Shown piece by piece: positions 9,170 through 18,474 of a DNA stretch of 64,000 bases. Positions within the stretch are counted from its first letter, which is position 1; the number at the start of each line of letters is the position of its first letter. A program made the position numbers and the translations under genes. The DNA is from Psychrobacter urativorans (GTDB lineage: Bacteria; Pseudomonadota; Gammaproteobacteria; Pseudomonadales; Moraxellaceae). The notes beneath the pieces were generated by a model. It saw nothing but the letters and a program-made list of their open reading frames with translations, was not told the DNA's origin and searched no databases. The DNA lies in assembly GCF_001298525.1 (NCBI RefSeq), contig NZ_CP012678.1, positions 806,001 through 870,000 on the forward strand. Direction: 5' to 3'.

Positions 9170-10582
9170 ATGCGCAAACTAAGCAAAAAGTCTGCTATTA
9201 AATGGGGCATTATTGCCTTAATTGTCGTAGCATTAGGTGCTTTAGCCTATAAAACCTTAAAACCAAAAGAAGTTCAGCCCAACTATCTGACGGCAACCGC
9301 CGAGATTGGCGATATTGAAAATAACGTCATGGCTTCTGGTAAGGTAAAAGCGCTTAATACCGTTGACGTTGGTGCGCAAGTATCTGGCGAGGTCAAACGG
9401 CTATTTGTTGATGTGGGCGACGAGGTGCAAAAAGGTGATCTTATTGCACAAATTGATCAGGTCACGCAAAAGAATAATTTAACCAATCAGCAAGCCAGCC
9501 TTGACCAAAGCCAAGCAGCCACTGAAAGCGCGCAAGCCGAAGTGTCGAGCCGTGAAGCAGGATTAAAAAGTGCGTACGCTGACCTTGCCAGCCGTCAATC
9601 AGAGCTAAAACAAGCCCAATCTGACTTCGGTCGGCTGCAATCTTTGCTTAATATCGATGCGATTTCACAACAAGAATACGATACTCAAGCTACTCGCATT
9701 GATACCGCAAAATCTGCCGTTGCCAGTGCTCGTGCTTCTATTGAAACGGCTAACGCTGCTATCGCTACGGCAAAAGCAAATATCAATAGCCAACAGGCGG
9801 CACTACGCAAGTCACAGACCAATGTGGACACCGCACAAGAAGACCTAAGCTATACTACGATTCGTGCGCCAATGTCAGGCACTGTGGTCTCAGTCACGAC
9901 CGAACAAGGCACTACCGTTAACGCCAATCAAAGCGCACCAACCATTGTTACCTTAGCGGACTTATCAACCGTGCGTATTAATGCACAAATCTCTGAAGCC
10001 GACGTCATTAACGTCAAAGCAAATATGCCCGTCTATTTTAATATCATTGGTAATCCCGACCAAAAATACGATGCTGTCCTTAAAGCCATTGAGCCTGCAC
10101 CTGAGCGCATTAGTGACACCAGCTCGACCGATGCCGCCATTTATTATGTCGGCTACATCGAAGTGCCCAATGCCGAACGTCGCTTCCGTATTGATATGAC
10201 CGCGCAAGTTTATGTCATCATCAACCAAGCCAAAAACGCCTTATTAATCCCTTCTGCCGCCCTACAACCTGCCGGTAAATCTAAAAAAGGTAGAGACGCT
10301 AATAAAGCGCCTACTAATGCTAAAGATACCAATGCTAAAGATACCAATGCTAAAACTGCTGATGCTAATCGTGAAGATGGCGTCACTACGGCTACCGTTC
10401 GCGTCCTGCAAGCTGACGGCACAGTGGTTGAACAAACCGTGAAAGTGGGTATTAACAATCGCGTTAATGCACAAATCCTCAGCGGTCTAAATAAAGGCGA
10501 TAAAGTAGTTATCAGTGAAGAAGGTCCAGCAAAAGGTCAAAAAGGCGGTAGAGGTGGTCGACCAGGTGGCAGACCGTTTTAA
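9170..10582 (+). CDS. macA: Efflux periplasmic adaptor subunit (MacA type)
   Basis: Membrane-fusion protein of a tripartite ABC efflux pump. One N-terminal membrane anchor (about residues 11-28) is followed by a split lipoyl/barrel-sandwich domain (GKVKALNTVDVGAQVSGEV; TIRAPMSGTVVSV) flanking a long Ala/Gln/Ser-rich coiled-coil hairpin (about 95-225), then beta-barrel and membrane-proximal domains. The C-terminal region has a Lys/Asp/Asn-rich linker with the repeated peptide TNAKD and a basic Gly/Arg tail. It stands directly before macB. Macrolide or enterobactin export is known for E. coli MacAB; the substrate here is unknown. Confidence 0.92.
   Translation: MRKLSKKSAIKWGIIALIVVALGALAYKTLKPKEVQPNYLTATAEIGDIENNVMASGKVKALNTVDVGAQVSGEVKRLFVDVGDEVQKGDLIAQIDQVTQKNNLTNQQASLDQSQAATESAQAEVSSREAGLKSAYADLASRQSELKQAQSDFGRLQSLLNIDAISQQEYDTQATRIDTAKSAVASARASIETANAAIATAKANINSQQAALRKSQTNVDTAQEDLSYTTIRAPMSGTVVSVTTEQGTTVNANQSAPTIVTLADLSTVRINAQISEADVINVKANMPVYFNIIGNPDQKYDAVLKAIEPAPERISDTSSTDAAIYYVGYIEVPNAERRFRIDMTAQVYVIINQAKNALLIPSAALQPAGKSKKGRDANKAPTNAKDTNAKDTNAKTADANREDGVTTATVRVLQADGTVVEQTVKVGINNRVNAQILSGLNKGDKVVISEEGPAKGQKGGRGGRPGGRPF
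10316..10353 (+). repeat. 15-base in-frame repeat within macA
   Basis: The unit GCTAAAGATACCAAT occurs twice in tandem followed by a partial copy, encoding TNAKDTNAKDTNAK. The unit length is a multiple of three, so copy change would keep the frame and only vary the linker length. Confidence 0.8.
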
Positions 10583-14354: not shown

Positions 14355-16442
14355 CTAAGCAAGGTCACGTACTTTTGGTTCACGCTCCCACAGACGTGAT
14401 TTCGCATTATCAATAAACGCATCTAAATCAGCCAATGGCGTGACAAAGCTGTCTTTTTCAATCGGTAGCTTGCTTAAGATAAACTCATCGGTCGCACCGC
14501 AATAGGCAATCGCTTTACAGTGCACATAGGCATCTGTAAACCAATCTAGAGCCGCGCTGTCTTTAGCAAGCTTCTTCGCTTGCTCTGGCATGATGATACT
14601 AACGACCGCATCAAACATCACAGACGGACCGCCTGCTACGCGCTCATCAGCTTGTATAATGGTATCATCGTCTAACTTCACCTCTTTATTCGGTGCAATG
14701 ATTTTAACACTTGCGCCCTCTGCATTTGCGGCATCTTCAAACTTCTTAATTTCGCTATGCTTTGAGCCTTCTGCAACTAGTATTCCAATCATACGACCTT
14801 TTAACGTCTTAGGCGTACGACCAATCGTTTGTAATACCTCAGACGTCGCCATGTCTTGTATCGGTGCAGCTGCCTCTGCCGCTTCGGGTAATTGCATACC
14901 CAGCGCCGTTGCAACACGATTTGCCAAATCTTCATCGATATTAATCAGATGACCCAACATACGTGTACGCACATGCGCGGTATCTACTTTACCCAACTCA
15001 AAGGCATAAGCAGAAGCAATATGCGCTTGTTCAATTTTAGTTTGACTGCGATAGAACATTCGCGGCTGGCTATAATGATCCGCAAAGCTCTCAGCACGCA
15101 TGCGACCTTTAACGCCATCATCTAGCGTCTCGGCAAAAGACGCAAAGCCTTTCTTCACGCTCTCACGTGGGCGCGTTGGATCGAGACTCTGTGGTTCATA
15201 TAACACACGAGTTTTCGGCACGTGCATCTGCATATGACCATCTTGCTGATTATTGGCAAACGGGCATTTTGGTGCATTGATTGGAATTTGGGCAAAATTC
15301 GGTGAGCCCAAACGCGATAACTGAGTATCTAGATAACTAAATAGGCGACCTTGTAATAACGGGTCATTACTAAAATCGATACCCGGTGGCAAATGTGAGG
15401 GACAAAACGCTACTTGCTCTGTTTCGGCAAAGAAATTATCCGGATAACGATTGAGCACCATTTTACCGACAATTTTTACCGGTACCAATTCTTCTGGAAT
15501 CAATTTGGTGGCATCCAAATGATCGAATGGAAATTCATTGGCTTCGTCTTCAGTAAATAACTGTACGCCAAATTCCCACTCTGGATAATCACCATTGTTG
15601 ATCGATTCAAACAAATCACGGCGATGATAATCAAGATCAGCACCGGATATTTTTACCGCTTCATCCCATGTAGTCGATTGCACACCCAGCACTGGCTTCC
15701 AATGGAAACGTACAAAGGTGCTCTTGCCTTCTTTATTAATTAAGCGATAACTATGAATACCAAAGCCTTCCATCATACGCAGGCTACGCGGCAGTCCGCG
15801 ATCACTCATTACCCAAATCAAATTGTGCATCGTCTCAGGGCTGAGTGAGACAAAATCCCAAAAGGTATCATGAGCAGATGCCGCTTGTGGAAAACCACGA
15901 TCTGGTTCAGGTTTGACCGCATGTACAAGGTCTGGAAATTTCATCGCATCTTGAATAAAGAAAATCGGCATATTATTGCCAACGATATCCCAATTACCCT
16001 CTTCGGTATAAATTTTTACCGCAAAGCCACGCACATCTCGCGGGGTATCTTTTGAGCCTTTACTGCCTGCTACTGTAGAAAAGCGTGTGAATAATGGCGT
16101 CTGCTTACCCGTTTCACTTAAAATCTTCGCAGTGGTATATTCTTCTAGCGATTCTGTCAATTCAAAATAACCGTGTGCTGCACTACCGCGCGCATGAACG
16201 ATACGCTCTGGAATACGTTCATGGTCAAAGTGATTGATTTTTTCACGTAAGACAAAGTCTTCTAACAGCGTTGGTCCACGTGCGCCAACCTTTAGCGAGT
16301 TTTGATTGTCAGAGATGACAACACCTTGCTGGGTGGTCAACGCTTTGGCGTCATCACCGGCACGCTGATGGGTTTCACCGCCATGACCTTGTTCTGTATT
16401 CATGTCTTTAGCGGGGTCAGTATGATCAATATTCTTATTCAT
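14355..16442 (-). CDS. katE: Catalase HPII (large-subunit clade 2)
   Basis: Decomposes hydrogen peroxide. The 695-residue protein is a large-subunit catalase. The distal catalytic His (about 83, in VHARGS) and Asn (about 156, in GNNMPIFF) are present, and the haem-ligand Tyr is in [14 protein letters not shown] (Tyr about 370). A C-terminal class-I-glutamine-amidotransferase-like domain starts near residue 545 ([15 protein letters not shown]). AGGAT lies a few bases before the ATG. Its long upstream region is shared with the divergent exported hydrolase and carries repeated ACGCTAT boxes. E. coli KatE is RpoS-dependent, whereas related bacteria often use OxyR; the sequence does not decide between them. 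Confidence 0.97.
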
Positions 16443-16897
16443 AAAATATCCTAGCTAGCTAATGAGTAAAAATGGGCTATTACTAGACCATTCAATAAGC
16501 GCCAACACAGTTTTATATCCGTAGGAATAATAGCGACTTCAAATGTCCGTTAATTTCTGCATGGTGGCACGGTTGCGGATAAAATCGACTCAAGCAATTT
16601 TTAGATAGCAATGCTGAGACAGTAATTCTGATACCAACAATTATCTTACTCAAAAATCGCCGACAGGTATGTCATCTATATCGTTAAGCGTGTTGATATT
16701 TGGTTAAGCAAAATAGCAATGATTTCAGCTTTAAATAATTTTAAACGCTATTATTTTTAACAATATAGCGTTGTTATGTAGTTATTCTTTACGCTATTCT
16801 CTAATAGATGTCTGCTCATAAATGTTAAAAGGGTAGATTGGCTGTTAACTACGCTATTTTTCACTGACATTTTTTAACTAACATGATGAGGCTAGCT
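16443..16897. promoter_or_regulatory. katE/hydrolase divergent intergenic region with ACGCTAT boxes
   Basis: This 455-base AT-rich gap holds no gene. ACGCTAT occurs at 16745-16751, 16791-16797 and 16851-16857, and in reverse at 16765-16771. The first and reverse copies form the inverted pair AACGCTAT-n13-ATAGCGTT (16744-16772). This suggests an operator serving one or both genes; no regulator is identified. Confidence 0.5.
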
Positions 16898-16956
16898 ATG
16901 ACATTGATATCAACATCCACTTTTACCAAACTACATAAGCGCTACGGCGAAAAGTT

Positions 16957-16988
16957 ACTGTGCAGCGCCTCTACTGTGCAGCGCCTCT
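16957..16988 (+). repeat. Perfect 16-bp tandem duplication in a signal-peptide region
   Basis: ACTGTGCAGCGCCTCT is present twice back to back. Sixteen is not a multiple of three, so the second copy shifts the frame between a well-placed ATG (16898, with GAGG 7 bases upstream) and the hydrolase body. Removing one copy would rejoin the frames. Confidence 0.95.
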
Positions 16989-17003
16989 TTAGCCTTAGCG
17001 GCA

Positions 17004-17717
17004 TTGCTGCTCAGCCAAACTGCTACTGCGATTACCACTAAAAATGTTATTTACACAGTAGACAACCAACCCTATGAGGGCTATTACGCCAAAGCGGACA
17101 AAGCGAATGCACCGTTTATCTTACTGATTCATGATTGGGATGGGCTCACCGACTATGAGCGCAAGCGTGCTGATATGTTAGCGACTGAAGGCTATAACGT
17201 GCTGGCTGCTGATATGTTTGGGCAAGGTATTCGCCCGACGACTATTGAAGAGAATAAACGCTTAACCGCAGCATTATATGACGATCGCAGCAAGATGCGC
17301 CGCTTGCTGCAAGGTGCATTGAATGCCGGTCAAGCGCAAGGCAATGATGCACGCACAGGCGTGACGATGGGCTACTGTTTTGGCGGTACGGTTGCTTTGG
17401 AGCTAGCGCGCTCAGGATTCCCGCAAAAGGCATTTGTACCCTTCCATGGTGCCTTCGATACGCCAACGAGTCAAAGCTATGATAAGACCACTGGCGAGAT
17501 ATTGGTGTTTCATGGCTCTGCGGATGACTCTGTCTCCCTAGAAAGTTTTGCTACTTTGGGCAAGACGCTAGAAGCGGCAAAGGTACCACATGAGATGGTT
17601 ACTTATAGTGGCGCGCCTCATGCCTTTAGCGTGTTCGGCAGCGATAGATATGATGCTCGCGCTGATCAGCGCTCTTGGAAACGTTATTTAGATTTTTTAG
17701 CAGAAACCTATAAATAA
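17004..17717 (+). CDS. Dienelactone-hydrolase-family protein, signal peptide frameshifted
   Basis: An alpha/beta-hydrolase of the dienelactone hydrolase family. The nucleophile Cys is in MGYCFGGTV, followed by an acid in GSADDSVS and His in GAPHAFSVFG. As it stands the body frame can begin only at a TTG (17004). A proper start is at ATG 16898, but a 16-bp tandem duplication at 16957-16988 throws that frame off, and it stops at 17041. With one repeat removed the reading is a classic export signal: a basic n-region, a hydrophobic SLALAALLLSQ core and ATA before ITTK. The gene is therefore either a recent pseudogene or switchable by repeat loss. It stands beside katE, a flavodoxin-like gene and osmC; its substrate is unknown. 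Confidence 0.85.
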   Translation: MLLSQTATAITTKNVIYTVDNQPYEGYYAKADKANAPFILLIHDWDGLTDYERKRADMLATEGYNVLAADMFGQGIRPTTIEENKRLTAALYDDRSKMRRLLQGALNAGQAQGNDARTGVTMGYCFGGTVALELARSGFPQKAFVPFHGAFDTPTSQSYDKTTGEILVFHGSADDSVSLESFATLGKTLEAAKVPHEMVTYSGAPHAFSVFGSDRYDARADQRSWKRYLDFLAETYK

Positions 17718-17752
17718 TTTGACTGTATGCAAAAATATTATCAGCTCTACAC

Positions 17753-17804
17753 AAAAAGACCTCTCAATCGATCGTTATAAGATCTTGATTGAGAGGTCTT
17801 TTTT
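17753..17804. terminator. Bidirectional terminator
   Basis: A 17-base stem (AAAAAGACCTCTCAATC with its complement) encloses a short loop, with A-run and T-run flanks. It lies between the convergent hydrolase and DUF938 genes and can serve both. Confidence 0.9.
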
Positions 17805-17823
17805 GTTCCAAAGCTTAGCTGAT

Positions 17824-18474
17824 TTAATATTTTTGAAATACCAGTAGCTGGTTGTTAGCGGGCATCTCATACTTATTAGATAGCTTTAGATGATGCGTCT
17901 CTGCCAAAACTATTATATCCTCTAAATGGCGGATACCGCTTTTTGGATCGCGTTGCCTGAGACTGATATCAAATTGCTGATTTCTGGCACTGGTGTAATG
18001 TCTATTTTCGTTAAATGGTCCATAAACGATCAGCTTCCCATTGATAGCTAAAGCATCACCTACTAACTCAAATAATTGCTCAACCAACAACCATGAGATG
18101 ATATGCAGGGTATTGGCAGTAAATACCGCATCATAAAGCTGATTACTAGCAAGACTTATCGGTAATGGATCGACTTCTAAATCAAAAGCCAGTGGCGCAT
18201 ATAGGCTGGGCGCAGGATAGGCAGTATGCCAAGCATTGATCGTAGAATGATGCGCTAACACGTCACTGGTCTGCCATGTTAAATAGGTCAATCTCGGTGC
18301 GAAATACACACTATGCTGCCCCGTACCTGAACCCACTTCTAATACATGAGTAGACTCTCGCAACTCTTTCTGTAAAACGTCCAAAATCGGCTGCTTATTA
18401 TTTTCACACGCTTGAGAAAAAGGTATTCCAGCAGGAGCAATAGATTGGCTATTATCTGAATTATCATTAAACAC
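17824..18474 (-). CDS. DUF938 SAM-dependent methyltransferase-like protein
   Basis: A class I methyltransferase fold with the SAM motif LEVGSGTGQHSVYFA and a later FTANTLHI stretch, matching the DUF938 family, whose substrate is not known to me. The frame is open to 18546, but the extra N-terminus is hydrophobic and unlike the family. A GTG at 18474 preceded by AGGAT at 7 bases gives 216 residues beginning MFNDNSDN, which I prefer. It follows the flavodoxin-like gene on the same strand and ends at the shared terminator. Confidence 0.82.
   Translation of the reverse strand: MFNDNSDNSQSIAPAGIPFSQACENNKQPILDVLQKELRESTHVLEVGSGTGQHSVYFAPRLTYLTWQTSDVLAHHSTINAWHTAYPAPSLYAPLAFDLEVDPLPISLASNQLYDAVFTANTLHIISWLLVEQLFELVGDALAINGKLIVYGPFNENRHYTSARNQQFDISLRQRDPKSGIRHLEDIIVLAETHHLKLSNKYEMPANNQLLVFQKY

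Follow-up and report, generated by a model that had tools for sequence, protein, structure and literature searches.

Is the export of an enzyme switched on and off by a short tandem duplication in its signal-peptide region, or has the duplication simply broken the gene? The question is raised by a locus in the 64,000-nucleotide stretch of Psychrobacter urativorans DNA analyzed here in full (hereafter the window), where a doubled 16-base unit lies between a start codon and the body of a hydrolase gene. The original prediction favored a reversible switch, with a TTG start giving a cytosolic form, and offered recent inactivation or an assembly artefact as alternatives.

A perfect doubling separates the start codon from the hydrolase body

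The doubling is as exact as predicted. On the forward strand, the 16-base unit ACTGTGCAGCGCCTCT fills 16957–16972 and recurs unchanged at 16973–16988, as read from the sequence and returned by both TRF and a separate tandem scan; with the preceding T included, the array spans 16956–16988 and 2.06 copies, and the duplication junction has one base in common. Among 100 simulated sequences of 64 kb (first-order Markov), none had a perfect two-copy tandem with a unit of at least 14 bases, and those with a unit of at least 12 occurred at 0.01 per sequence; the 16-base doubling is therefore a real duplication. The 16-mer has no further site in the same genome, allowing up to two mismatches. Hairpin-promoted slippage was dropped as an origin because the duplicated stretch folds no better than its shuffles (z 0.27; 111 of 200 shuffles fold at least as well), and a promoter and terminator scan over 16440–17900 gave nothing exceeding shuffles.

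The frame opened by the ATG at 16898 reads into the repeat and, as foreseen, ends at 17041. It comprises 47 codons (16898–17041, forward strand) with the TAA stop at 17039–17041. The first 25 residues correspond to the beginning of the nearest relative's protein, and those after them are out of frame. The hydrolase body (17004–17717, forward strand, 237 codons) begins 106 bases from this ATG, which sets the two frames one base apart; the TTG at 17004 is its earliest ATG, GTG, or TTG codon, in agreement with the claim that the body has no other start. A GAGG ribosome site is present at 16888–16891 as predicted, with an energy of −5.6 kcal/mol (equalled by 6% of 300 random TTGs), although its spacing to the ATG counts 6 bases and not the 7 first given. 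The body frame is fully open, without an additional lesion. An exact tandem duplication inside a gene, accompanied by a frame shift, is one feature of tandem-duplication phase variation, and this locus displays it.

Directly 5′ of the start codon, at 16857–16884, lies an imperfect 14-base direct repeat, TTTTTMACTRACAT, a stretch found unchanged in one relative (L005) and with one base different in another (L004). This direct repeat is possibly an operator.

The body scores 132 bits with the Pfam DLH family (PF01738; cut-off, 21) and matches seven solved structures at E ≤1e-10, five of which are named dienelactone hydrolases (best E, 6e-29). In an alignment of six sequences, C125 (in GYCFGG), D174, and H206 are invariant; by analogy, we take them to be the catalytic Cys, Asp, and His of the dienelactone hydrolase family. 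The mature part is expected from about codon 10 of the body (ITTKN...), and the signal-peptide-like N-termini of relatives suggest that this family member is probably exported. As context outside the lesion, the divergent neighbor (14355–16442, reverse strand) encodes a catalase related to HPII, with 952 bits against NCBIfam PRK11249, below the 1102-bit cut-off. A relative of this HPII-like catalase is found near the orthologue in 57 of 60 named Psychrobacter loci (positions printed for 12).

Nearly all readable orthologues in the genus have one copy and an intact frame

The gene is present in 82 of 105 genomes of the genus, this genome included. The other 23 contain weaker matches only (best E, 1.8e-13 to 2.8e-27), three of these genomes being less than 90% complete; given 23 genomes without a better match, the hydrolase gene is dispensable in the genus. 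Upstream DNA was compared in the 81 other orthologues, of which one (L165) is cut by a contig end, leaving 80 readable. An in-frame ATG stands 22 to 60 codons 5′ of the mature start in 79 of these 80. All 79 encode at least one Lys or Arg in the N-terminus, and 77 have an 11-residue window with a mean hydropathy of at least 1.6, the remaining two reaching 1.45 and 1.55. The AxA-I motif is seen in 79 of the 80, with SAA instead in L157. Signal-peptide-like character was judged from these features and not by a signal-peptide predictor. The orthologue without an in-frame ATG (L164), which retains the motif, comes from a poor assembly that is 84% complete (G049); its gene is broken once more, and by eye the frame is lost at an A-run. 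The original prediction had proposed that the duplication shifts the signal peptide out of frame and that orthologues be compared for a one-copy, in-frame allele. The comparison supports a frameshift in an ancestral signal-peptide region: the in-frame ATG and hydrophobic segment occur in 79 of 80 orthologues, and no doubling of this size occurs in any.

Allowing up to three mismatches, the doubled 32-mer is found in 1 of the 105 genus genomes, and across these genomes and the 80 other readable orthologue regions no repeat tract conserved between strains or species was found at the locus. Perfect doublings with a unit of 6 to 60 bases are absent from the region in 79 of the 80 other readable orthologues. 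The exception, L004 (genome G005), a near relative, contains two in-frame 6-base tandem doublings (CCATGA and GCATTA) around the same signal peptide, which indicates that the signal-peptide region gains small duplications without loss of frame.

A search of 5.8 billion proteins returned 2891 matches, of which the best 120 are considered here. The nearest among the matches listed (P0001) is 95% identical, 267 residues long, and continuous, and its N-terminus is identical to the peptide from ATG 16898 at 23 of 25 residues. An [A/S]xA-I motif lies at residues 21–66 in 117 of the 120. Two of the remaining three (P0015 and P0096) are seemingly annotated from earlier starts and the third (P0031) from a later one. 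P0031, from Psychrobacter sp. AOP22-C1-C5, has 242 residues and lacks most of the signal peptide. It may have been annotated from too late a start, or its gene may be a second broken one; none of the compared loci holds its DNA, the best match being 89.6%.

We take one copy to be the ancestral state, and the duplication to be private to this genome in the sample, because 79 of the 80 readable orthologues are in frame, the 32-mer occurs in 1 of 105 genomes, and P0001 is continuous and shares 23 of 25 N-terminal residues. The one-copy state is known from relatives at 95% protein identity or less, the closest sequences in the comparison.

The duplication is probably recent. In the mature region, dN/dS between this gene and six relatives is 0.038–0.061, and among those six it is 0.030–0.066. 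The sequence set comprised the 65 of 81 other orthologues that were ungapped and full, with 16 left out, and the terminal branch of this gene ranks 57th of 76 in ascending length. No sequence decay is visible in the mature region. A recent break would explain this, and so would the limited ability of the dN/dS test to register an event of recent date. Recent inactivation, an alternative in the original prediction, fits best.

Starts available to the two-copy allele

The two-copy allele might still yield hydrolase: a cytosolic form if translation begins at TTG 17004, or a product of a rare start (ATA 16935, CTG 16974, or CTG 17007) or of a +1 frameshift. On the 5′ side of the TTG, 32 codons of the body frame are open, encoding a lysine and then a long hydrophobic stretch, and some of the rare-start or frameshift routes would retain this hydrophobic export segment. 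A fully open body frame is also compatible with a product from some start, which counts against product loss. The ribosome-site energies point the other way: compared with −5.6 kcal/mol at ATG 16898, we obtained +1.3 at TTG 17004, where 92% of 300 random TTGs are at least as good, +2.4 at ATA 16935, and +0.9 at CTG 16974; CTG 17007, at −1.7, equals the median of random TTGs. The codon at the position of TTG 17004 is TTG in 13 of 80 orthologues, and a search by eye recognized no frameshifting signals. With such poor energies and so little conservation, a second product from the TTG or a rare start is unlikely, the cytosolic form first proposed finds no support, and continued hydrolase synthesis from the two-copy allele by any of these routes is hardly probable.

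The two copies in the assembly

The two copies could also reflect a mistake in assembly or consensus, or a minority allele chosen by the assembler, in a strain that really has one copy; a mixed culture is another possibility. One copy is the rule among orthologues, which favors this explanation, and our inference is drawn from assembled sequence. Three points speak against it: reads are far longer than the 32 bases of the array, homopolymer-type errors do not typically take the form of an exact 16-base doubling, and the array is situated at about 823 kb in a 2.8-Mb contig. Gene breakage elsewhere in the window, which would be a sign of bad assembly, was sought by comparison with relatives in a scan that is blind to N-terminal breaks: of 125 relative open reading frames, 96 had hits and 92 were compared. 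Eight of these were flagged. They map to five places, and each lies opposite a longer reading frame of the window, so none is a broken gene; the present hydrolase gene was unflagged. Overall, we consider an error in the assembly unlikely.

Short doublings are background in two sampled genomes, and a switch is not supported

In samples of 400 kb each, this genome has 5 perfect doublings with a unit of at least 10 bases, and G005 has 21. In the two genomes sampled, short perfect doublings are therefore an ordinary background class of mutation. The G005 sample (L186–L205) has about four times as many per 400 kb as that of this genome. One of the five sampled here (13 bp, L173:4414–4439) precedes a 187-codon open reading frame. 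The window itself has a second doubling besides 16957–16988, at 10316–10354: an in-frame 15-base repeat of 2.6 perfect copies inside a 470-codon open reading frame (9170–10582) that, by eye, looks like an efflux adaptor.

A phase-variable locus would pass between one copy (exported hydrolase on) and two copies (off) at a useful frequency. Perfect tandem repeats are able to contract, and in pneumococcus, tandem duplications that arise spontaneously in capsule genes, described by Waite in 2001 (type 3 locus) and 2003 (cap8E and tts), are reported to cause phase variation (PMC4022640). The same paper puts reversion of a 9-bp insertion at most at about 1e-5, which weighs against a switch; the value applies to 9 bp and not to the 16 bp of this locus. 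Several observations speak against a switch: no relative has a repeat of comparable size to expand, the junction shares one base only, shuffled sequences fold as well as the stretch itself, and doublings of this kind are background in the genomes sampled. A conserved repeat-based switch was thus dropped as the main reading, there being no comparable repeat in the relatives examined, and the reversible switch of the original prediction, with its array in 1 of 105 genomes, gained no support from the comparison. We regard such a switch as very unlikely, and nothing suggests that the locus has evolved to act as one. The further proposition that one and two copies interchange often enough in the species for hydrolase export to be a bet-hedging trait is the least probable of those considered here.

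Discussion

A loss-of-function or loss-of-export mutation fits the locus best, and we consider it likely that a recent 16-bp tandem duplication, rather than an evolved switch, has cost this gene its main frame and left little or no exported hydrolase. The duplication would have arisen once, within the part of a conserved, probably exported hydrolase gene that encodes the signal peptide; slippage during replication or template switching is a possible origin, with the one base common at the junction. The main frame is thereby shifted. From the normal ATG, a dead peptide of 47 residues would result, and hydrolase would be exported in small amounts or not at all. As with any short tandem duplication, one copy could in principle be lost again.

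Known systems include both outcomes. As in the pneumococcal capsule duplications, a short tandem duplication inside a reading frame would abolish the product here and be precisely losable in principle; it affects the signal peptide of a hydrolase instead of a capsule gene, and whereas phase variation is reported for pneumococcus, here we have one genome, relatives without the repeat, and no sign of switching (PMC4022640, in the portion available). Tandem duplications of 26–116 bp make up 3 of 25 distinct mutations among Xenorhabdus nematophila lrp mutants, according to the available portion of PMC6786866, and are likewise one kind among plain loss-of-function mutations, although with longer units and under selection in stationary phase. 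The reversion assay in that portion covered eight other lrp mutants and not the duplications, and is uninformative on duplication reversion. Fission yeast ssp1 offers a local one-to-two-copy duplication within a coding region that may likewise revert, but it uses flanking microhomology pairs, compared with the one shared base here (PMC13207564, in the portion available). A search on Psychrobacter and phase variation, covering open-licence literature, listed no paper with either term in its title or abstract. The evidence fits a plain mutation, and the literature alone does not decide between switch and mutation.

The locus provides a clean case, from an environmental bacterium, of a conserved export signal broken by a short tandem duplication. 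Automatic annotation of such a gene could report a shortened, seemingly cytosolic hydrolase. If the locus did switch, Psychrobacter would join the organisms in which duplication-based phase variation is reported.
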